Below are positions 3,071-20,191 of a DNA stretch of 20,209 bases, one piece after another. The DNA comes from a virus: the IMG/VR virus record IMGVR_UViG_3300023174_000764, positions 1 through 20,209 of that record. One strand, given 5' to 3'. Each line of letters opens with the position of its first letter. The first letter of the stretch is position 1. The notes under the pieces were generated by a model. The model was given only the letters and a program-made list of their open reading frames with translations. It searched no databases and was not told where the DNA came from. The position numbers were made by a program, and so were the translations under genes.

Positions 3071-4735
3071 TTACGCTGGGTCTACCGTTACGTCAGCAGT
3101 GTTAGACAACGAGCCTGTCCACGCTATCGCCGAGTCATCCTCTTTGTATACACTCATTGTGCCTGTACCTACAGATACCTTATTACGCATTGCTCGCAAT
3201 GCACTACGAACGGTACGTTCGTTCAGCGTGTCTGTACCGTCACCTGTACTGTCCAACTTACGGTTGAGAATAGCGTCTGCTGTCTGTGCTGCTGTAAGAC
3301 CACCACTCGAAAGTTTGATAGTCATGACCGCACCGTTAGTACCGCTTGCACCTCTAACCACTATCGTGACATCGTCAGCACCAGCCGCAAGCGCAGCATC
3401 AGGCACGTCCAATCTGTAGACTCCCGGCATATTGGTTGCGTCAACCTCGGCAAAGCCACCAGCAGTCCACGCCTGAGCGATTGTACGGGCTACTAGAGGG
3501 ATAGATACAGATGCAGTCCTTGTGCGGTTGTATCGGGCTGTGAGACCGCTCGTAGAGGCTGTAAGACCTGTAGCACCGAGGTACAGTTCGATGGATTGTG
3601 ATGTGGACGCTGGAGCGATTGTGATGGCGGAAGCGTTGCGCTCGATGCCACCACTGTAGCCAATATTTGTAGGGTTGCTTGTAATTACTCTGTATGTGCC
3701 AGACCCTGCATCCGGGCTAGTACCAGTCCACGTTACGCCATACATATCAGTAGCAGGTGCGCCGCTTGCTGTACCAAATGATGCATTTGAGCTGACAAGA
3801 GTACTTGTAAACGGCTGTAGGTTATTGATGCCGGTTAGTAACGAATCGAATAGGTCAACCCCGGAAAGTCCGCCAGTGGTTGAGTTCGTATTCACAGACA
3901 CGTTGTTAAGGCTCGCAGTGGTCAATCTGTTGTTGTTGGATACAACTTTGTTCGCAGTCGTATCACTGTAGAGTGCGACACCAAAGAATAAAAATAAAGA
4001 GTTTGATACAACTAATGGATTACTGGTACTGTATGCCCCAACCCAACTTACGCCGTAATCTCCACCGAAGAATGTACAGTTTCGTATATTTCCGCCACCA
4101 GCATTGGCATTGCCAGTCGCCATTTCAATGCATCTAATAACGCCACTGGTCAACAATGGAAATATCAAGCAGTCCTCAATAACAAATGGATTGTTATAAG
4201 CACTAGTATGCGAACCAAATTCCATTTGAATGATTGGTCTGCCAGCAATCATTACACATTTTGACCACGTATGAGATAACGGTTTAGTTGGTCCGTTACC
4301 GTTACATCCAATGCTTCCAATAAATACACACTTTGTAAACGTAATGTATGTACACCCTGAAATCGTCAACAATGTTGACTTAGCAGATGCATTCTCAAAT
4401 ACGATATTGGAAAAGTTTATGTAATCTTTGTTTGTAATCGTAAGGACATTGTTTGTTGTACCGGTCGCTATATTTGCAACTGGGGTTATTCTGACCGGCC
4501 CTGCTGTACTTGATGTATACGTGCCAGTCGGGTCGCCGATAAAATTAATCTGATTACCAGATGTCCCTGTTGCTCCCGTATAGGTCAAATTACTTGCACT
4601 CAGGTAGTTTCCGGGAGCAAGATAAACCGTATCTCCAGCCGCTGCATTTGCTAACGCTAACGCTAGAGTAGTTGGTGAGCCAATCGTGCCGGGATACCCT
4701 GCGGAACCAGTACTAGACACATACGCCGTTGCCAT
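3071..4735 (-). CDS. Tail spike with N-terminal right-handed beta-helix and C-terminal BppU-like and tag modules
   Basis: A 554-residue virion protein with three regions. Residues 1-365 look like a right-handed parallel beta-helix: a pectate-lyase-type entry (ALALANAAAGDTVYLAPGNY at 25-44) followed by regular rungs such as YINFSNIVFENAS and ITFTKCVFIG, and repeated 'NC.F' or 'S.C' turns. This architecture is typical of phage tail spikes that bind or cut surface polysaccharide. No catalytic pair can be named from sequence alone. Residues about 370-475 form a beta-sandwich with GGFAEVDATNMPGVYRLDVP and DDVTIVVRGA, a module often found in modular phage fibres. Residues 486-554 form the tag also present at the end of the protein at 810-1718. 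The ATG at 4735 overlaps the upstream stop (TAATG). Confidence 0.8.
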   Translation of the reverse strand: MATAYVSSTGSAGYPGTIGSPTTLALALANAAAGDTVYLAPGNYLSASNLTYTGATGTSGNQINFIGDPTGTYTSSTAGPVRITPVANIATGTTNNVLTITNKDYINFSNIVFENASAKSTLLTISGCTYITFTKCVFIGSIGCNGNGPTKPLSHTWSKCVMIAGRPIIQMEFGSHTSAYNNPFVIEDCLIFPLLTSGVIRCIEMATGNANAGGGNIRNCTFFGGDYGVSWVGAYSTSNPLVVSNSLFLFFGVALYSDTTANKVVSNNNRLTTASLNNVSVNTNSTTGGLSGVDLFDSLLTGINNLQPFTSTLVSSNASFGTASGAPATDMYGVTWTGTSPDAGSGTYRVITSNPTNIGYSGGIERNASAITIAPASTSQSIELYLGATGLTASTSGLTARYNRTRTASVSIPLVARTIAQAWTAGGFAEVDATNMPGVYRLDVPDAALAAGADDVTIVVRGASGTNGAVMTIKLSSGGLTAAQTADAILNRKLDSTGDGTDTLNERTVRSALRAMRNKVSVGTGTMSVYKEDDSAIAWTGSLSNTADVTVDPA

Positions 4736-4962: not shown

Positions 4963-5093
4963 TTGCCCACCTTCAAACTGTTCGGCTGCACACCCTTGAA
5001 CGGCATCGTCAAGAACGCCAGCACACTAGAGACCGCAGCGGAGACACCAGCCGCTACCGCCTTGCTCCCGTACAGTGCCATCACTGCGCCCAT
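4959..5093 (-). CDS. Very small hydrophobic protein, 44 aa, coupled on both sides
   Basis: A short gene that fills the space between 5093 and 4962. The ATG at 5093 overlaps the upstream stop as ATGA, and its own TGA overlaps the next ATG in the same way. An AAGG/GAAG-type ribosome site (GGAAGGTGAAGAAGTG) precedes the start. The protein is MGAVMALYGSK followed by an Ala/Val-rich hydrophobic stretch (about residues 12-32, ending AFLTMPF) and a short tail with two lysines (SLKVGK). One membrane-spanning or membrane-associated helix is plausible. Together with the holin-like gene two positions upstream it may belong to a lysis or membrane set, but this is inference. The exact fit of both ends is the main evidence that it is coding. 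Confidence 0.62.
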   Translation of the reverse strand: MGAVMALYGSKAVAAGVSAAVSSVLAFLTMPFKGVQPNSLKVGK

Positions 5094-12118: not shown

Positions 12119-12252
12119 AACCAATCTCCAGTCTTGTTAATTTCCTTGATTATTTTTTCCACTCGTTGATCTTTCAATTCTTTAAGCACTTCATACATCC
12201 ATACCAATGTAAGAATTCCAAATAAAGCCTCAACAACGTCACGGACTTGCAT
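12115..12252 (-). CDS. Small membrane-type protein between terminase and portal, 45 aa
   Basis: A short gene that exactly fills the gap between large terminase and portal. Its ATG at 12252 overlaps the terminase stop (TAATG) and its TGA overlaps the portal ATG (ATGA). The protein is MQVRDVVEALFGILTLVWMYEVLKE and then a charged helix with QRVEKIIKEINKTGDWL. Residues about 6-20 are hydrophobic and the rest is amphipathic and charged, so it may sit on the membrane with one short N-terminal helix, or it may be a small helical assembly factor. No family is recognised. The double overlap, the fit to the spacing and a frame open across the whole gap support coding. Confidence 0.63.
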   Translation of the reverse strand: MQVRDVVEALFGILTLVWMYEVLKELKDQRVEKIIKEINKTGDWL

Positions 12253-13991
12253 TAGATCCAATCCTTTTGCGCGTTATTACTCATCCAGCTTGGCAGATTT
12301 TCCTGATTGCGAATTCGTTCCGATCTAATCTCAGGACATTCTACTGGATATTTCCTCCACATTGCCCCATACCTCATGCTGTCAATGGCGTGATCATGTT
12401 TTGTGCCATTGTCAATTTCATCTGGATCACGTGGAGATGCCATTGTTTTTTCTAACTGTTTGATAATATTTGGGCATTTGTTTCTAACTATTTGGAGTTT
12501 AGATCTACGTTTCCCTGCAACAAATTCAGACGCATCAAGTAATTCTTTCATTTGTGCCCAGCCAGCTTTTCTGTCTTTAACTGCACGGACACATGGTAGT
12601 CCCATGTTCCACCAAATCTCGACTGGGTATTCACCAATTCGTTCTTCAATTTTTGCAGGAGGAAAAGTGTTTGCCCAGTCAAAAGCAATAGCTTCTAGTT
12701 TTGTTGCCCATTGATTGCGCTCTTTTGAAACACACTTTGCTAGTTCAAACTGCTCTAACATCTTTGCAACATTAGTTGCTTGACTTGAACTAACGTGACC
12801 TGCCTCATACCATTCAGATAACAAATACACATTCTCGCGTTCGTCAGATGCAAACAGTATCGTACAAGCTGGAGCACCCGTACCGTAGTCATGACTTGCC
12901 CAGAATCTCCACCAAGGTTGAATTTCAACATGGTCAACCACATGCCATGGGTTACCCTCATTATCATATTCTCGAAATTGTGGAAAGAATCTACCGCCAA
13001 CGCCAACATCATGCTGACATTCTCGTAAAAACGATGTTAATCCAAACGTATCAATTTCATCTTGGCAGACCTCAATATTTTTGTGCTTCCAAGCTGGCGT
13101 CCCACCTGTAATTTTGTAACCAACACGACCATTGTCTCGTTCACATGGCGTATATGTAAGATCCCAGATAGCTGGAACTTTAGGTGATTGAATACGATTT
13201 TGTAGCATATCAATCTCACCTGATAAGGTTCTAGTCATAACGCTATTACTATGAATGGCATTTTGTACAAAAATAACTGCGCAGTCAATACTTCTGGCTG
13301 GAAGAATTGTAGCAGTCATTGTTTTTATTTTTTTCTCCACGCGATCAACAGAGTCATCAAGCTCATCAATGTCGTCAAAAATAATGATGTCAGGACGTAA
13401 GTGGTCAAGCTTAACACCACGAGCACCAGTGTCCAAACCGAACGCAAGAACATTAAAGCCATTGGAGGTGCGTAACTTACTTGCACTCCATCCCTTTGAA
13501 AATCCATATTGGTTTACCGCTCGCTCAATACCACATTTTTCCATTGCACTTGCAATATCGTTTACGTGCCTATTTGCTGCATCTTGTGTGTGGCAAACAT
13601 ATAAAGCAAAGCGCCTTGTAGCCTTAACTGCTAATCGTGAAATGATAAGTTCAACGGTAGTTGATTTACCACCACCTCGAAACCAACATTCAATCAACGC
13701 TGGCGCGGATGCACCGGGGGTTAACTTTTCAGCCCATTCCCATGCTCGTATGTGATGTTCTGCTAAATCTGCATTAGCGGAATGCCTTGCATAAGACTTT
13801 AACCAGTGCTTGTAATCTAGTTCGGCTCCGGCTATAGGAATAGCTTTACCGCTATCAAAGTCACCTAGTTGTAATGTAGTTCCTAATTCATCTTCAAGTG
13901 CTTGTAATAAGCTAACTGATAATGACTTACCGCTTTGCATAAAAGGCTTTAACTTACGTGGAGTTAGTGATTTACCAATATTAGTTTTCAT
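12252..13991 (-). CDS. terL: Terminase large subunit (ATPase-nuclease)
   Basis: A 579-residue packaging motor. The ATPase domain carries a Walker A-like RGGGKST at about 105-111 and a Walker B with IIIFDDIDE at about 203-210. The adenine-binding and coupling region lies between (YVCHTQDAANRHVNDI). The C-terminal RNase H-like nuclease domain begins near 365, with the first acidic residue in ASHDYGTGAP, a second in AIAFDWAN (about 438) and a third in KHDHAIDSMRYG (about 531-541), the usual metal-binding trio. It cuts concatemers and drives DNA into the procapsid through the portal. The ATG at 13991 is preceded by GAGG at six to seven bases; a TTG one codon upstream is possible. It overlaps the small terminase-like gene by 11 bases. 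Confidence 0.92.
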   Translation of the reverse strand: MKTNIGKSLTPRKLKPFMQSGKSLSVSLLQALEDELGTTLQLGDFDSGKAIPIAGAELDYKHWLKSYARHSANADLAEHHIRAWEWAEKLTPGASAPALIECWFRGGGKSTTVELIISRLAVKATRRFALYVCHTQDAANRHVNDIASAMEKCGIERAVNQYGFSKGWSASKLRTSNGFNVLAFGLDTGARGVKLDHLRPDIIIFDDIDELDDSVDRVEKKIKTMTATILPARSIDCAVIFVQNAIHSNSVMTRTLSGEIDMLQNRIQSPKVPAIWDLTYTPCERDNGRVGYKITGGTPAWKHKNIEVCQDEIDTFGLTSFLRECQHDVGVGGRFFPQFREYDNEGNPWHVVDHVEIQPWWRFWASHDYGTGAPACTILFASDERENVYLLSEWYEAGHVSSSQATNVAKMLEQFELAKCVSKERNQWATKLEAIAFDWANTFPPAKIEERIGEYPVEIWWNMGLPCVRAVKDRKAGWAQMKELLDASEFVAGKRRSKLQIVRNKCPNIIKQLEKTMASPRDPDEIDNGTKHDHAIDSMRYGAMWRKYPVECPEIRSERIRNQENLPSWMSNNAQKDWI

Positions 13992-14697
13992 CAACTACCT
14001 CAGCATCTATAACGTCATCTTCTTGATATTGACGTAGCAACTGTCCAATTCCTGTTTTGATTGCGCTCATCTCTTCCGCGTCTTTAACACTTTTTTTGAT
14101 TACACCTAAAACCTGCATAATCAAACTGTAGGCTTGATCAACTTCTAAGATATAGGATTTACTTTGCAGCATTTTTTGTTCAGTCTCTACAATAAATGCT
14201 CGTTGCCGAATCAAATCAATCAAAGAATCAGATGCTGCTGTTGCATCTGCTCCATCACGAACAGATGTATCTAAATGATCAATGAGCTTGGTCACCTCAT
14301 CAAAATTTGAGCTTTTCCATTCGGCTTTTAATGCTTTAACTAAACCTTTAATTTCAATGTAGTGTTCAGTTGTTATGCCTTCTGTAATTGCCTCTGCCCG
14401 TACGTCAAGTAAAGCAGTGATATAAGCAGCATCATCTTTCAGTGACCACAACTCTGGGTCATCACGTAGTTCTCGAATACGTGTTAATAATTTTGGTGCT
14501 ACTGAAGCAAACCTTTCGCGGTTCATTCCAGACAGCCCAGTTTTAAATGTAGGTGAATTTATATTTCGTGTTGCTTTTGATACGTGAAAACCACATAAGG
14601 TATGCCCGTCCATTGCATTTCTCTTACACTGGCTCTTTTCGCCATGTCTGGTAAAAGTAGCAACGCACCTTTGATTTACCTTCTGTAATTCATTCAT
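13981..14697 (-). CDS. Terminase small subunit-like protein with N-terminal Cys/His motif
   Basis: A 238-residue protein directly upstream of and overlapping the large terminase. The N-terminus has C11, C24, C35 and H38 in RCVATFTRHG..SQCKRNAMDGHTLCGFH, a zinc-ribbon-like 'C..G..CKR..G..C..H' pattern seen at the start of many phage small terminases and related proteins. The rest is helical (PKLLTRIRELRDD, ALLDVRAEAITEG, a region near 150-190 with QRAFIVETEQKML) with an acidic C-terminal tail (DDVIDAEVVDEN). The small subunit recognises phage DNA and regulates the motor. Assignment rests on the motif plus gene order. The ATG at 14697 has no Shine-Dalgarno; instead a 13-base box lies nine bases upstream, shared with the regulator gene at 19985. 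Confidence 0.75.
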   Translation of the reverse strand: MNELQKVNQRCVATFTRHGEKSQCKRNAMDGHTLCGFHVSKATRNINSPTFKTGLSGMNRERFASVAPKLLTRIRELRDDPELWSLKDDAAYITALLDVRAEAITEGITTEHYIEIKGLVKALKAEWKSSNFDEVTKLIDHLDTSVRDGADATAASDSLIDLIRQRAFIVETEQKMLQSKSYILEVDQAYSLIMQVLGVIKKSVKDAEEMSAIKTGIGQLLRQYQEDDVIDAEVVDEN

Positions 14698-14706
14698 ACT
14701 TTAGCA

Positions 14707-14719
14707 TACTGTAAGTAAT
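14707..14719 (-). promoter_or_regulatory. Putative operator/promoter box upstream of small terminase gene
   Basis: Read on the minus strand, ATTACTTACAGTA begins at the last base of the upstream stop codon and ends nine bases before the ATG at 14697. The same 13 bases stand nine bases before the ATG at 19985. The core TACT-TAC-AGTA is an inverted repeat. It almost fills the 21-base gap, the largest inside the operon, and TACAGT could also serve as a -10 element. Function is inferred from the repeat and spacing only. Confidence 0.5.
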
Positions 14720-15297
14720 TACTTTTTAATAGGTTGTTTTTTTAGAGGCATTTTATTTTGTTGTGGTTTACCAGTAAATAAATCAGCTAATGCCTGTATG
14801 GTTGGCGTTGCATATTTGACTGGAGTGTTTATGACGTCTCCAACTTTGGAGATACCAGTCATTCCTTTTTCATACATAGGATTTTCTATTATCTGCTTTG
14901 CAATAGGCTTTAACAGTGGGCCATACATTTTTAACCACATTGCTCGATTTACTGCATCAGGATTGTTATTTACTATTGATTCATCATCTTCAATTTGTTT
15001 TTTTAATTCGTAATCACCGAACATATTGTATGCACTGTCAATACCAAGATTAACATATGGAGCAGCTCCACCACTTAGTTGCGCAGTTAAATAATCTTGC
15101 AGCGCATTTCCACCTATTTGCGACAAACCATATGTAACTGCTTTTTCTCTTTCTGCATCATCATCTGATGCTAATCCACGCAATGTTGCATCAACACCAC
15201 CAACATAAGGCATCACCCCCATTAGATTTGCTGCTAATGGGAGTGTTTTTCTTACCGTTTTGCCTAGAGGTGATTTACTTTTTTGCTGCATTTCCAT
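14719..15297 (-). CDS. Glycine/alanine-rich helical protein, 192 aa, partner of the giant protein
   Basis: A 192-residue protein of unknown family. Residues 18-40 (TLPLAANLMGVMPYVGG) and 56-92 (GLSQIGGNALQDYL, GGAAPYVNLGIDSAYNMFG) are Gly/Ala-rich and mildly hydrophobic, the middle is acidic (QIEDDESIVNNN), and the C-terminus is basic (KQPIKK). The gene overlaps the end of the giant gene by about 20 bases, so the two are coupled. The start is ATG at 15297 or at 15291 (two codons shorter); GAGAG lies directly before the first. Amphipathic small proteins next to a giant virion protein are sometimes ejection or internal capsid proteins. I make that only a hypothesis. The next gene is the small terminase-like gene, 21 bases away. 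Confidence 0.65.
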   Translation of the reverse strand: MEMQQKSKSPLGKTVRKTLPLAANLMGVMPYVGGVDATLRGLASDDDAEREKAVTYGLSQIGGNALQDYLTAQLSGGAAPYVNLGIDSAYNMFGDYELKKQIEDDESIVNNNPDAVNRAMWLKMYGPLLKPIAKQIIENPMYEKGMTGISKVGDVINTPVKYATPTIQALADLFTGKPQQNKMPLKKQPIKK

Positions 15298-18200
15298 CTC
15301 TCACTTGTTGCGATAGATTACTTCTAACTCGATCACCAAATACACCTGCTGCTGCCGGAACTAACATCATGCCGGGTTTTTTAAGTCTGGCTAGTAATCC
15401 CTTACCCTTTGCCTTCTGAGCCTGATCTCCAAGCGTAACGCCCTTTGTACGCGCAGGAGCTGGCATAGCAGGTGTTGCACCCGCAATCATTGATGAGGCG
15501 CCGACTTTACTTAAGTCAAACTTACTACCAGCTTCAAACCTTAAGAATGCAAGCGCTGTGTTTAAGTCATCTCTATTTGTTGAAAAACGAGGACTTCTTG
15601 TCAATTGATCAATTGTTCTACCCGATGCTAATTCTTCAGCTACAAACTTAATGTCTTTAGCTTCATTTGTAGTAACTTGATCTGGCTTACGTGCACTCGT
15701 GTTCCATCGATCAATATCTTTGTTGACTTTCTCAATCCATTCTTCTGGCTTAAGCTCACCCATAAATTGTTGTGGTACATAATTTGACCCAACGGTTTCA
15801 CCAGTTTTTACTTGAAAACCCTTGCCAGTTGGACCCTTTACTCCTGTTGGTGTACCCTTTGGAGGAGCTTCACCAGTTTGTTCTTGGCGCTCGACATTTT
15901 TAATAGCAAGGTCTGCAGTTGGATTTTGACGACCACGATTTTTAGCTGGTGGTCTAGGGATACTTCGTTCAAGTGCTACTGAAACAGCCCTTTGCAATGA
16001 AGTTACTTTAGTTATTGCCTCTTCCGGTGATTTAGAATTTGCAATGATTGACAGCAATCCTCGTTGTCGATTTGGATCTTTTAAGAAATCGCTTAATGCT
16101 TCGGCTTGCAATGCTGCTTTAACTTCACCAGAAACATCGCGCTTTTCAATAGCATCATATTTCTTTTTAAAATCTGGATTCCAAAATTGAAATTCTTTAC
16201 TGGCTGGGCCTAAACGTTCAGCCATTACATTAATAGCTTGATAGGCTACATCAAACAATGCAGGTGCTTCTATTACTTGTGAACGAGCAACACCTTGTGA
16301 ACCAGATAGCTGTCTAGGTAAAACGTTACCTTCTCGTAATCCTTTTAAAATTCCATCTATACCAGCAACTAATCCGTCCGTCTTACCTTTAGTAGATATG
16401 CCATCTCCAAGTAATTTTTTTGATTGCTCAGGAATAGCACGTAGGATTTTAATTAATGCTTGAAAATTTACATCCTTATCTGCTTTGCCATACTCAATCA
16501 TTCCTGCTACGCGATTAACACCAAGACCTTGAATTGCAGTCCGTACAGACGTCCCAAGTAAACCTTCAGTTAGTTGTTTGCGGCTATATGCAACGGACAA
16601 TCTTCCAGCGTCTTTAACATATTGATTCCATGCATCTGGATTTGCATTAATTTTTTCAATTAATCCGTCTGGTGCATATCCAGTAGGTGTTCTTCCGTCT
16701 GGGCCAATTACATATGGTGATATTCCAAATGTTTTATATCCACGAACAAAACTTAAAACAGTTTCAGGAACATCTACATTAAGCTCTGTACGCTTTGCTT
16801 CTTTTATTAATTCTCCCTGTACATCAAGAAGCGCCCTGCGTTGCTTTAATCTTTCCGGTAGGTTTTTATCACTTACAATTACAGTATCGTCAGAAACTTT
16901 CCCTCCACGCATATTTTTAAATACTGTTAGTAGTTGCGAATCTTTTGGGGCTAAACCCATAAGATCACCCCAGAATTTTGGAGTTGCTACTCCTTGATTA
17001 GAAGCAATAGCTAATAATTTTGCGTTAAAGTCATAGGGAGACTTTTTATTAGCAACTGCAAGTTCAGGATTTTCAGAAACTAAAGTTTTAAATCTGTTAT
17101 TAATCAACTCTTCTACTTTAGGAGTTTTAAGTTGGCTGATGGCATCATTAAGTAAAAATTCACCTTCAATGCCCTTTCCCTTAATTTGAATATCTCCATC
17201 TTTAGTAGTAGTAACTTGTGCGCGGGTTAATCGTGCTAAATTACGAACTAATGTTTCTTGCAGTATTCCAACTTTTCCGTAATCACGTGGGATTGGTTTA
17301 CCTGCTGCATCTACGTCTAATGGCCTATATGGACTACGAGCTAATGTCTTACTTACACTATTAGGTAGCATAAGTTTTAACTGTTCTGGCGTAGCATATG
17401 GTGAAATCTTTTTTGCAAACATTCCCCAGTCAGGTGGATTCTGAAGTAATGCTGTTGTTGCTTGCTTAACCCTAGCTTCAAATGCACGAGCAGATGCAGA
17501 ATTAGGGTTTTGATCTGTACCTGAACCAAACCAGTCAAGTTTAGTAATTTGTTCTACGGCATTTGTGACATCAAGTCTTTGAGCAGCAGAAACAGCTGGA
17601 CCAGATACAGGTTTACCACTAAGAGGATCAATAAGTGCTCCAGCTTTTCCAACCTGTGCACCTGTTTTCATTGCCTCCATTAATTTGACAGCACTTTGGT
17701 TTCCGGAACCAAGTGTCTGAGATAGCAATCCTCGTTCTGCTAATTCGGCAACATTTGCATTAAGTTGTGCCATAAATGGAGATTTAGCTTTAAATAATGC
17801 TTCAACTAAACCAAGAACAGCTTGTTGCTTTCCACCTATTGCAGTACCGGCATATTTTTTATCAAAATCCTCGCCAATTCGTTTTACTGTAATAGCTCTG
17901 GCTGCACCCATAACCTGTTCTGTAAATTGCCTAGTAACATCTTTGACTGTAACTCGACCTTCTTCAGCCCATGGCTCTAGATCTTTATTGGCAACCTTTA
18001 AATCTTTCCATTCATCATATGTATTACCTGCTTGTAACCAACCGGGCAATCCAAGTCTAGAAAGGTTAGCTAAAGTGTCTTGACCTTTTAATTTTGATGA
18101 AAGTTGCTTACCTGCACCAAATTGTCCTGCTTCTCGCAAAACACCATCAAACATATCTTGCGCCTTGGCAAGAGTTTCGTTTTTAATATTTTCTGGTACA

Positions 18201-19354
18201 CCATTAGCCGGGTCAGAAAGCAATCCATTAAGTGTAACAAGATTGCCAAATCCTTCAGCAATAGCAGTTCTATTTGCTCCAGAAGAACTTGAATAAACCC
18301 TAGCTACACCCTCAAGGTACTTATTTGCATCTGACGCAATTGTTGTGTCAAACTTAGATCCACCAAGGTCAGTTGCTGTTCTTGTTATTACATTCATGCG
18401 ATCAATAGCAGGTTTTTCTACAAATGACCGCAAAAATGAACCCGGAGCTTGATTGCCAATAGATCTTGTAATGATGCCAAGTAATGCAGGGCTAGTTTTT
18501 GGAATACTTTCAACATCTAAATTAGATTGAAATGTTTTTGCCGCACCAACAGTACCTGCATCTTCTACGCCTACTGTTGATTCCTTGTAACGAGAGATTG
18601 TTTCATCTAGTAATTTGTCGTAAGCCGCAGAAGCCTTAAGTGGGGCTTCACGGGATTGCTCAATACGTGTTTTGATGTCGTCTTGAATAACTTGAATTGG
18701 GCGACCAGTGCGCTTAGCAATGCTTTCAATTTCAGGAGTAGCTCGCTCAAGGAATGCATCCATATCCATTGAGCCTGAAAAAGATGATGTACCTCCAACC
18801 GCAGGACGTGTATTACCACCAGCTTTTCCGCTAGTGCGTACCTTTTGTATTGGCTTGTACACATTAGGAGATACTGTTTCACCAGTTGCACCTAATCCAC
18901 GAGTAACTAGTTCTTCAGTATCAATCTGCCCGATTTGACTAGCTTCTAGCTTATCGCCCTGTAACTCAGCTTTAAATTCACGAGGTCCGGGTTGTGACGG
19001 AGTAGTTGCTTTTAAGAAGTCAAATGGATCAACAACTGTAGTTGCAAATTTTGCAATACCAAGCCGTTCAAAAATAGGACGAGCAACGTTATTAACTTCG
19101 TCCTTTGATGCTCCTGAAGTAATTAAACGACGCAGAGATTCTTCGTCATCTGGATTTTTTGCCAGAATGTTAGTAATTCGCGCTTTTACTAGACGCGGTA
19201 CGCCACTTGTATCTTCAGCAGGTGGACCGGGAGCAGGAATTGCAGGTGGAGCTACAGGCTTTATTGGTGCTCCCTGACCAGCCATAGCTTGATCAACTTT
19301 TTGTTTATCAGTATCTGCTGGATTGCCTAGTAAAAGAGAACGAAAAGATGCCAT
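15275..19354 (-). CDS. Giant protein of unknown function, 1359 aa, candidate internal virion/ejection protein
   Basis: The largest gene here. GGAG six bases upstream supports the ATG at 19354. The N-terminus is Pro/Ala-rich (KPVAPPAIPAPGPPAEDTSG at 32-51) and probably disordered. The body is mostly helical and soluble, with many Lys/Asp-containing helices and no Walker, protease, transglycosylase or polymerase motif that I can see. Near the end there is a linker (PPKGTPTGVKGPTGKGFQ), then further helices, a basic stretch (KGKGLLARLKKPG) and a short hydrophobic stretch (MMLVPAAAGVFGD), which looks membrane-active. Length, helix content and the coupled 192-residue partner fit an internal or DNA-ejection protein, although those usually follow the tail genes and this one precedes the terminase. 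It could also be an unrelated enzyme. Function unknown. Confidence 0.75.
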   Translation of the reverse strand: MASFRSLLLGNPADTDKQKVDQAMAGQGAPIKPVAPPAIPAPGPPAEDTSGVPRLVKARITNILAKNPDDEESLRRLITSGASKDEVNNVARPIFERLGIAKFATTVVDPFDFLKATTPSQPGPREFKAELQGDKLEASQIGQIDTEELVTRGLGATGETVSPNVYKPIQKVRTSGKAGGNTRPAVGGTSSFSGSMDMDAFLERATPEIESIAKRTGRPIQVIQDDIKTRIEQSREAPLKASAAYDKLLDETISRYKESTVGVEDAGTVGAAKTFQSNLDVESIPKTSPALLGIITRSIGNQAPGSFLRSFVEKPAIDRMNVITRTATDLGGSKFDTTIASDANKYLEGVARVYSSSSGANRTAIAEGFGNLVTLNGLLSDPANGVPENIKNETLAKAQDMFDGVLREAGQFGAGKQLSSKLKGQDTLANLSRLGLPGWLQAGNTYDEWKDLKVANKDLEPWAEEGRVTVKDVTRQFTEQVMGAARAITVKRIGEDFDKKYAGTAIGGKQQAVLGLVEALFKAKSPFMAQLNANVAELAERGLLSQTLGSGNQSAVKLMEAMKTGAQVGKAGALIDPLSGKPVSGPAVSAAQRLDVTNAVEQITKLDWFGSGTDQNPNSASARAFEARVKQATTALLQNPPDWGMFAKKISPYATPEQLKLMLPNSVSKTLARSPYRPLDVDAAGKPIPRDYGKVGILQETLVRNLARLTRAQVTTTKDGDIQIKGKGIEGEFLLNDAISQLKTPKVEELINNRFKTLVSENPELAVANKKSPYDFNAKLLAIASNQGVATPKFWGDLMGLAPKDSQLLTVFKNMRGGKVSDDTVIVSDKNLPERLKQRRALLDVQGELIKEAKRTELNVDVPETVLSFVRGYKTFGISPYVIGPDGRTPTGYAPDGLIEKINANPDAWNQYVKDAGRLSVAYSRKQLTEGLLGTSVRTAIQGLGVNRVAGMIEYGKADKDVNFQALIKILRAIPEQSKKLLGDGISTKGKTDGLVAGIDGILKGLREGNVLPRQLSGSQGVARSQVIEAPALFDVAYQAINVMAERLGPASKEFQFWNPDFKKKYDAIEKRDVSGEVKAALQAEALSDFLKDPNRQRGLLSIIANSKSPEEAITKVTSLQRAVSVALERSIPRPPAKNRGRQNPTADLAIKNVERQEQTGEAPPKGTPTGVKGPTGKGFQVKTGETVGSNYVPQQFMGELKPEEWIEKVNKDIDRWNTSARKPDQVTTNEAKDIKFVAEELASGRTIDQLTRSPRFSTNRDDLNTALAFLRFEAGSKFDLSKVGASSMIAGATPAMPAPARTKGVTLGDQAQKAKGKGLLARLKKPGMMLVPAAAGVFGDRVRSNLSQQVRDGNAAKK

Positions 19355-19653: not shown

Positions 19654-19911
19654 CTAACAATCCCAAGCCCGTAACGATTTATTAATTCTACTATTTGGAT
19701 CATTAGCAGTTTTAGCAGATGTTCTAGTTTTTTTCATGCCTTCCATTCTGGCACAAAACGACTTACGCCTAGACGCATCCTTATCTGTCTTAGGATTTGG
19801 GGCTGGAGGCTTGAGTTTAGACCCAGTAGTGCGATTAAAATGAGCACGACCGGCAGCATTTAAGCCGCCACTTGGGTTTTGGTACTTTTTAATAACTCCC
19901 ATAGTAGACAC
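19654..19911 (-). CDS. DUF6321-like small protein, 85 aa
   Basis: An 85-residue basic protein with the marks of a small phage-associated domain I recall as DUF6321: an N-terminal NPSGGLNAAGRAHFNRTTGS, then RRKSFCARMEGMKK (49-62), and an ending SAKTANDPNSRINKSLRAWDC. The Cys in KSFCARM and the C-terminal WDC/WKC are typical of that group, which is found in many uncultured and cyanophage genomes, without known function. The frame starts with GTG at 19911, preceded by TAAGG five bases away; the ATG at 19902 (82 residues) is the alternative but its AAGG is 14 bases away. It is the first gene of the leftward operon, next to the divergent regulator. Confidence 0.75.
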   Translation of the reverse strand: MSTMGVIKKYQNPSGGLNAAGRAHFNRTTGSKLKPPAPNPKTDKDASRRKSFCARMEGMKKTRTSAKTANDPNSRINKSLRAWDC

Positions 19912-19919
19912 TGTTACCT

Positions 19920-19930
19920 TACTTGAAGTA
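19920..19930. promoter_or_regulatory. TACT-N3-AGTA palindrome near the start of the leftward operon
   Basis: TACTTGAAGTA is a perfect inverted repeat with a central G. It lies eight bases before the GTG at 19911 on the minus strand and matches the TACT-N3-AGTA core of the boxes at 14707-14717 and 19965-19975. It is a candidate binding site for the neighbouring LuxR-type protein; this is inferred. Confidence 0.45.
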
Positions 19931-19962
19931 CTTGCATCATACTATAGATAAAAAGTCCATAC

Positions 19963-19975
19963 ATTACTTACAGTA
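19963..19975 (+). promoter_or_regulatory. Putative operator/promoter box upstream of the regulator gene
   Basis: ATTACTTACAGTA lies exactly nine bases before the ATG at 19985 and is identical to the box before the small terminase gene. It sits where a Shine-Dalgarno would be, and the regulator has none, so binding here, or initiation at TACAGT giving a nearly leaderless mRNA, are both possible. Confidence 0.5.
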
Positions 19976-19984
19976 CAATGTAAT

Positions 19985-20191
19985 ATGCATAAACTGACAC
20001 CAAGAGAAAAAGAGGTCATCATTGCAATTGGCAATAAGATGACCTCTAAGCAAATAGCTACTTTGCTATCATTAAGTCCACGGACAATTCACGCATACCT
20101 AGAAAACATTTACTGGAAACTAGATGTGAGTGGCCCAAAGGCTAGACTTGACGCATACAACGTAGCACTACAAAACAACCTTCTTGATTAA
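19985..20191 (+). CDS. Stand-alone LuxR/GerE-type HTH transcriptional regulator, 68 aa
   Basis: A 68-residue protein that is essentially only a GerE/LuxR-type DNA-binding domain: LTPREKEVIIAIGNKMTSKQ at 4-23, then IATLLSLSPRTIHAYLENIY (24-43) with the recognition helix around 32-44, and WKLDVSG. The LTPRE start and the SKQIA...SPRTIHAYL helix-turn-helix are family hallmarks. No receiver or ligand domain precedes it; the ATG at 19985 is the only good start, since the ATG at 19978 is followed at once by a stop. It is the only plus-strand gene and faces away from the structural operon. Family members act as dimers on inverted repeats, and such repeats flank this gene. It is likely to be a transcription switch for phage genes, perhaps autoregulated. 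Confidence 0.85.
   Translation: MHKLTPREKEVIIAIGNKMTSKQIATLLSLSPRTIHAYLENIYWKLDVSGPKARLDAYNVALQNNLLD

Follow-up and report, generated by a model that had tools for sequence, protein, structure and literature searches.

The 13-base element ATTACTTACAGTA, which stands before two genes on opposite strands of the window (a complete IMG/VR record, 20,209 bases long), is, judged from its conservation in related phages, the core, or 5' part, of a conserved phage-family promoter-operator with the consensus ATTACYTRCRG-TANNNT, in which the final two bases of the box open the predicted -10 hexamer. We estimate at roughly 0.65 the probability that this phage promoter-operator is read by a 68-aa LuxR/GerE-type protein, the most likely candidate, which would recognize the dyad TACY-N3-RGTA. 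The conservation of the element, its strict phasing with the -10 hexamer, the set of genes that it precedes and its co-occurrence with the LuxR-type gene are observed, and it is from these that we infer binding, transcript starts and the sign of regulation. The element provides a promoter map that can be read from sequence and predicts transcript starts as well as leaderless translation of the regulator and of a packaging gene; it also names a candidate protein. A phage regulon box with its cognate regulator is a known kind of system, of which the form fused to the -10 represents a new variant; no published description of gene control was found for this uncultured phage group.

The two copies of the box are exact and are located at 14707..14719 on the minus strand and 19963..19975 on the plus strand, each with the dyad TACTTACAGTA (14707-14717 and 19965-19975, respectively) and each nine bases before an ATG (TGCTAAAGT-ATG, 14697 (-); CAATGTAAT-ATG, 19985 (+)), precisely as the original prediction had described them. 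No further copy with fewer than two mismatches is present in the window. The bare repeat is poor evidence, since 19 different 13-mers occur more than once in the window; what is non-random is the extended form, ATTACYTRCRGTANNNT, which matches the window only at the two box sites and not once in 100 shuffles, and the inner dyad TACTN3AGTA, with four matches in the window versus 0.38 expected. The box is, moreover, strongly conserved in relatives. A chance repeat of 13 bases, with which the recurrence of so many other 13-mers would agree, is already contradicted by the conservation and phasing of the box across relatives, and its probability is negligible. The description of both copies as intergenic needs correction, as the first base of the minus-strand copy (14719) is the final base of the stop codon of the upstream gene, and the gap that this copy occupies is not the largest in the operon, being 21 bases long compared with 127 at 12125-12251 and 130 at 4963-5092.

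The minus-strand structural operon of the window encodes a P22-type portal, a GP7-type major capsid protein, an SU10-type adaptor and TerL (12252-13994, phrog_38). The gene in the TerS position (13981..14697 (-), 238 aa), predicted to be expressed leaderless from the first box, overlaps the TerL gene and has an in-frame TAA two codons 5' of its ATG; upstream of it lies a 1359-aa open reading frame (15275-19354). The TerS-position protein is Cys/His-rich at its start (QRCVATFTRHGEKSQCKRNAMDGHTLCGFH) and matches no family clearly. At the right end of the window, the 68-aa candidate reader (19985..20191 (+)) matches the Pfam GerE family over residues 3-49 with an E-value of 7.1e-12 and 45.2 bits, well above the cut-off of 23.5, which places it in that family. 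Its matches include 42 PDB sequences of the LuxR/NarL type, the best solved relative being GerE itself (1fse, 6.4e-10).

The original prediction had proposed that the box be sought in related phages, with lack of conservation as a refutation, and this refutation failed. Nine relatives of 60-67 kb contain 29 occurrences of the exact consensus, where a first-order model predicts 0.33; of the 29, 28 lie directly upstream of a gene on the same strand and one lies within a gene. The T at hexamer position 6, which is outside the box, is present at all 28 gene-upstream sites and absent from the intragenic one, 28/28 being the unbiased count (sites for the alignment were gathered with a pattern that demanded the final T). 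In close relatives the box precedes both the LuxR-type and the TerS-like gene at equal distance, which bears out the proposal of an element common to the two genes. The TerS-side copy is conserved in six close relatives (L015-L020) and has two mismatches, outside the dyad, in L009; in L015 and L009 it persists despite replacement of the end of the gene that precedes TerS. The sequence ATTACYTRCRGTA stands before the gene at all 29 loci that encode LuxR-type orthologues, the most distant at 53% identity, and every distinct version of the LuxR/GerE-type gene (19/19) is preceded by the intact consensus; across these 19 distinct promoter sequences, the box columns carry 1-2 bits versus about 0.5 in the flanks. 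Among the orthologous genes of nine diverged relatives, the box is found before the LuxR gene in 9/9, before a small gene designated E in 9/9 and before the SSB gene in 4/9, the other 5/9 having the dyad variant TACYGTA-W-TACRGTA at SSB. This variant, a near-perfect 15-bp dyad, lies directly before the SSB -10 in place of the usual box in G016, G017, G018, G029 and G030, and is seen also in the SSB promoters of L111, L113, L114 and L133. The box at the TerS-like gene is confined to the clade of the window and is missing from G003, G015-G018, G029 and G030; the suggestion that the packaging-capsid-tail unit truly begins there does not hold in general. In 85,000 prokaryote genomes (257 Gb) the motif occurs at chance level, and a host-wide promoter class was rejected because the 14 matches share no common context. 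In IMG/VR, 28 of the 31 motif-bearing stretches were assigned to the phage family of the window, as judged from their contexts. Motif matches in L079-L086, which all fall in a single conserved coding sequence belonging to other phages, were attributed to chance, and those in L055, L063 and L075 likewise.

The promoter classes that carry the box include those of the LuxR gene, SSB, tRNA-Leu (with ThyX next to it), E (a small unknown gene with a VRR-NUC-like gene and DnaB after it in the same orientation, a replication operon), the TerS-like gene and MNLIKPG, as well as a class with the form TTGACA-N17-TAGTAT. The phasing is identical in all of them: the box spans -23 to -11, and TA is common to the box and the -10. 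A TANNNT at a fixed place next to the box, as expected of a sigma-70 -10, is found at 28/28 gene-upstream sites, and at the tRNA gene the predicted TATAAT is followed shortly by the start of the gene. A -35 element is absent from seven of the eight classes, TTGACA at a distance of 16-18 being found only in the TTGACA-N17-TAGTAT class, where the box fills the spacer, a natural position for a repressor. That class scores 6.0 of 6 for its best -35 match and the TerS promoter 3.4, with six classes at or below the background of 2.5; a standard sigma-70 scan does not call the box sites, because they have no -35. The original reading of the box as an operator or phage promoter stands as far as an operator/promoter element is concerned, although it is not a free-standing operator and most probably not a phage-polymerase promoter, its fusion to the -10 being consistent with use by host RNA polymerase. 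In the window, the predicted -10 of the TerS-position gene is TATGCT (14703..14708 (-); TATTCT in sister phages), which has its TA in common with the box, and that of the LuxR-type gene is TACAAT (19974..19979 (+)), each of them five bases from the ATG. Since this distance is 5-9 bases at LuxR genes and 5 at TerS, the corresponding mRNAs are predicted to be leaderless or nearly so, which would explain why neither gene has a Shine-Dalgarno sequence; at SSB the distance is 17-19 and a Shine-Dalgarno sequence is present. Leaderless genes next to a TANNNT have been described in other bacteria, and both the LuxR and the TerS-like gene show the corresponding signature, with a -10 about 5-9 bases ahead of the start codon and a Shine-Dalgarno sequence lacking.

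On the opposite strand next to the LuxR box, a TATNAT hexamer is found in 19/19 distinct versions, at a gap of 21 (11 versions) or 22 bases (8 versions), and in 0/37 sites of the other promoter classes. In the window, this predicted -10 of the structural operon, TATGAT (19936..19941 (-)), is 21 bases from the second box. One box thus touches two divergent promoters, given that the conserved opposite -10 lies only 21-22 bases away, and the centre of the dyad falls near -41 or -42 relative to the divergent -10 (near -41 in the window). Class II activators usually sit near -41/-42. The first gene of the divergent structural operon encodes a DUF6321 protein (19654..19911 (-); PF19846, 1.5e-24) and adjoins the LuxR gene in relatives also. 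On the basis of these alignments, the predicted divergent promoter beside the LuxR gene is where the structural operon starts throughout the family. Another dyad of this form, TACTTGAAGTA, lies at 19920..19930, 3' of the divergent -10; it is kept in L104, L107 and L109 and missing from L105 and L108.

The connection of the box with the LuxR-type gene was examined in 15 relatives fetched by means of TerL. Both relatives with a full LuxR-type gene carry boxes (2/2), and 12 of the 13 without one have no box, a co-occurrence that is confounded by the shared ancestry of the relatives; diverged LuxR-like matches were found in three of the 12. The exception, G031, bears boxes without a LuxR gene as the result of a recent deletion. 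G031 (L300, L288) and G043 (L287) are identical at 3191 of 3192 aligned bases (99.97% over 3.2 kb) apart from a 195-bp deletion in G031, which has removed nearly all of the LuxR gene together with its -10, with the break inside the box, and has left the divergent promoter. The 66-kb contig of G031 retains intact boxes at SSB, E and MNL, so that either the LuxR gene is not strictly essential or G031 represents a transient mutant or an assembly artefact. A second group of LuxR-like HTH proteins of phages (L134-L164) has 36-43% identity, an N-terminal extension and no box upstream. A covariation between the recognition helix and box position -16 (HA.. with TAC, HF/HS.. with TGC), seen by eye, was set aside because it tracks phylogeny and fails at other promoters of the same genomes.

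Where relatives lack the LuxR gene, a different dyad, ATGTAWTACWT, is found at the corresponding tRNA, SSB and E promoters, and those of tRNA and SSB have a TGn extended -10, which the box promoters do not have; some of the SSB promoters in this group have ATTAC at the same position. Operator and regulator appear, as far as these comparisons reach, to have turned over together. A more far-reaching proposal, which we put forward as speculative, is that a GerE-type HTH of only 68 aa might control a large family of uncultured phages as its master switch, with an operator that shares the -10 and with leaderless mRNAs, and that sister phages might have swapped both regulator and operator (ATGTAWTACWT for ATTACYTRCRG). 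Under this proposal, the swap at the same promoters would mean that the regulon was rewired wholesale while gene content remained unchanged. The near-isogenic pair G031/G043 and the sister phages with a different operator offer a ready comparison for the study of regulon rewiring by phages. The ATGTAWTACWT dyad is also found before an early gene, and its distance to the -10 varies (L290, L293, L295, L309, L310, L316, L318, L324, L327 and L330).

For the mode of action, we tentatively prefer a timing switch of the kind represented by GerE or phi29 p4, in which the same protein would have a dual role. Host RNA polymerase would use the box promoters to express the regulator, SSB, tRNA/ThyX, the replication genes and, in the clade of the window, TerS, with the LuxR and TerS-like transcripts beginning at the ATG or a few bases from it and thus yielding leaderless mRNAs devoid of a Shine-Dalgarno sequence. 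As the LuxR-like protein accumulated, it would cover the edge of the -10 and limit the box promoters, that of its own gene included, and, acting through this same box, whose centre lies at about -41 for the divergent promoter, it would favour the structural operon. By analogy with GerE and p4, a dual role would be the best fit to the divergent arrangement. In phi29, too, the regulator site lies between divergent promoters, one of which serves structural genes, and the fixed spacing of 21-22 bp in 19/19 versions fits such an arrangement of one site and two promoters; p4 sites overlap -35 elements whereas the box overlaps the -10, and repression and activation are here predictions. To our knowledge, p4 is unrelated to the 68-aa protein. 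The p4 protein represses the early promoters A2b/A2c and activates late A3 (PMC3100819). GerE of Bacillus, an HTH-only regulator of the LuxR/NarL family, activates and represses within one temporal class (PMC517825); the 68-aa protein resembles it in size and in being a GerE-type HTH that stands alone, but is phage-encoded, would have different sites and is not accompanied by a sporulation sigma factor, its regulatory effect being predicted. Repression is favoured by the overlap with the -10, the position of the box in the TTGACA spacer, the survival of the LuxR deletion and the variable operator distance in sister phages. Against the proposed switch, late repression of the TerS copy would be odd for a packaging gene.

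Activation at all sites is rather unlikely, in our view, even though strict phasing with the -10 and the missing -35 and TGn fit a repressor site no better than a positive element. The LuxR-like protein would in this case be a middle or late activator that replaces the missing -35, binding -23 to -13 and recruiting or remodelling host RNA polymerase at every box, including those of TerS and of its own gene (positive feedback). Such a role would accord with the lack of a -35 in seven of eight classes, the lack at box promoters of the TGn seen at the SSB and tRNA promoters of LuxR-less phages, the weak -10 hexamers at LuxR and TerS, the uniform phasing and a set of targets (replication, SSB and nucleotide genes) reminiscent of T4 middle genes. 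It is opposed by the overlap of the site with the -10 itself, by the TTGACA-N17-TAGTAT class, which needs no help, and by the existence of the LuxR deletion G031 as a 66-kb contig. The T4 middle promoters (MotA/AsiA) resemble the box promoters in their use of host polymerase, a good -10, no -35, a phage-specific box and replication-type genes. They differ in that the MotA box lies near -30 and MotA is not known as a GerE-type HTH, whereas the box described here spans -23 to -11 and has bases in common with the -10. T4 middle promoters require both MotA and AsiA.

It is improbable that the box has a different reader, for instance a host polymerase in modified or alternative form, a host factor or some other protein of the phage, with the LuxR-like gene a mere member of the regulon. 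The persistence of boxes in G031 and the ATTAC at the same position in some LuxR-less SSB promoters would be compatible with another reader, but the motif is not enriched in prokaryote genomes, no sigma-70 region 2 exceeded the cut-off in nine relatives (with a working control), box and LuxR gene are otherwise present or absent together, and the dyad form suits a dimeric HTH. NarL sites consist of heptamers in a 7-2-7 arrangement; the usual box is a shorter 11-bp dyad, TACY-N3-RGTA, and only the SSB variant of one lineage, TACYGTA-W-TACRGTA, resembles two inverted heptamers, arranged 7-1-7. The likeness extends to the HTH family and to the TACY half-site, as NarL-type HTHs bind TACYYMT heptamers (PMC4886647).

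Hardly credible is a promoter for a phage-encoded RNA polymerase (T7- or N4-like), to which the phage specificity of the motif and a giant protein of 3733-3759 aa in relatives, the size of the N4 virion polymerase, might point. For the giant open reading frame (L087 194-11395 (-), L088 277-11556 (+), L089 2048-13273 (-)), Pfam, PHROGs and PDB sequences yielded no match to a polymerase and only weak, sub-threshold matches to an OB-fold (E 0.0015, below its cut-off) and to an M78 peptidase. No RNA_pol match was obtained in nine relatives, with an uninformative control, and the conserved TANNNT is a -10 of the sigma-70 type. A hairpin promoter for an N4-like virion polymerase, which the three-base centre of the dyad and the 3.7-kaa reading frame had brought to mind, was rejected because the giant protein has no polymerase match and TANNNT points to sigma-70.

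A loading site of the Q or AlpA kind, from which a spacer-bound protein would ride with polymerase through terminators, is very unlikely. The AlpA binding element lies between -35 and -10 (PMC7969949), and the box resembles it as an element inside the promoter, 5' of the -10, with a conserved terminator-like hairpin within about 60 bases downstream at the E promoter. Other classes, including SSB, LuxR and TerS, have no terminator between box and gene, the candidate reader is a GerE-type HTH, and no Q/AlpA homologue was identified by profile search. The hairpin in the E leader (TTGTGGAGYCTRAA..TTYAGGCTCCACAA; L053, L057, L058, L062, L064, L066, L068 and others) is followed in most sequences by a T-run and then by a Shine-Dalgarno sequence and ATG, and is possibly an attenuator, an antitermination site or a small RNA. 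A known RNA element was rejected, since Rfam returned tRNAs only, in overlapping pieces of two genomes with the TTGACA-class leader. That leader, downstream of the TTGACA-class box promoter, contains two strong hairpins (about -31 kcal/mol for 75 nt; L076 near 14603 (-), L052 near 2036 (+)).
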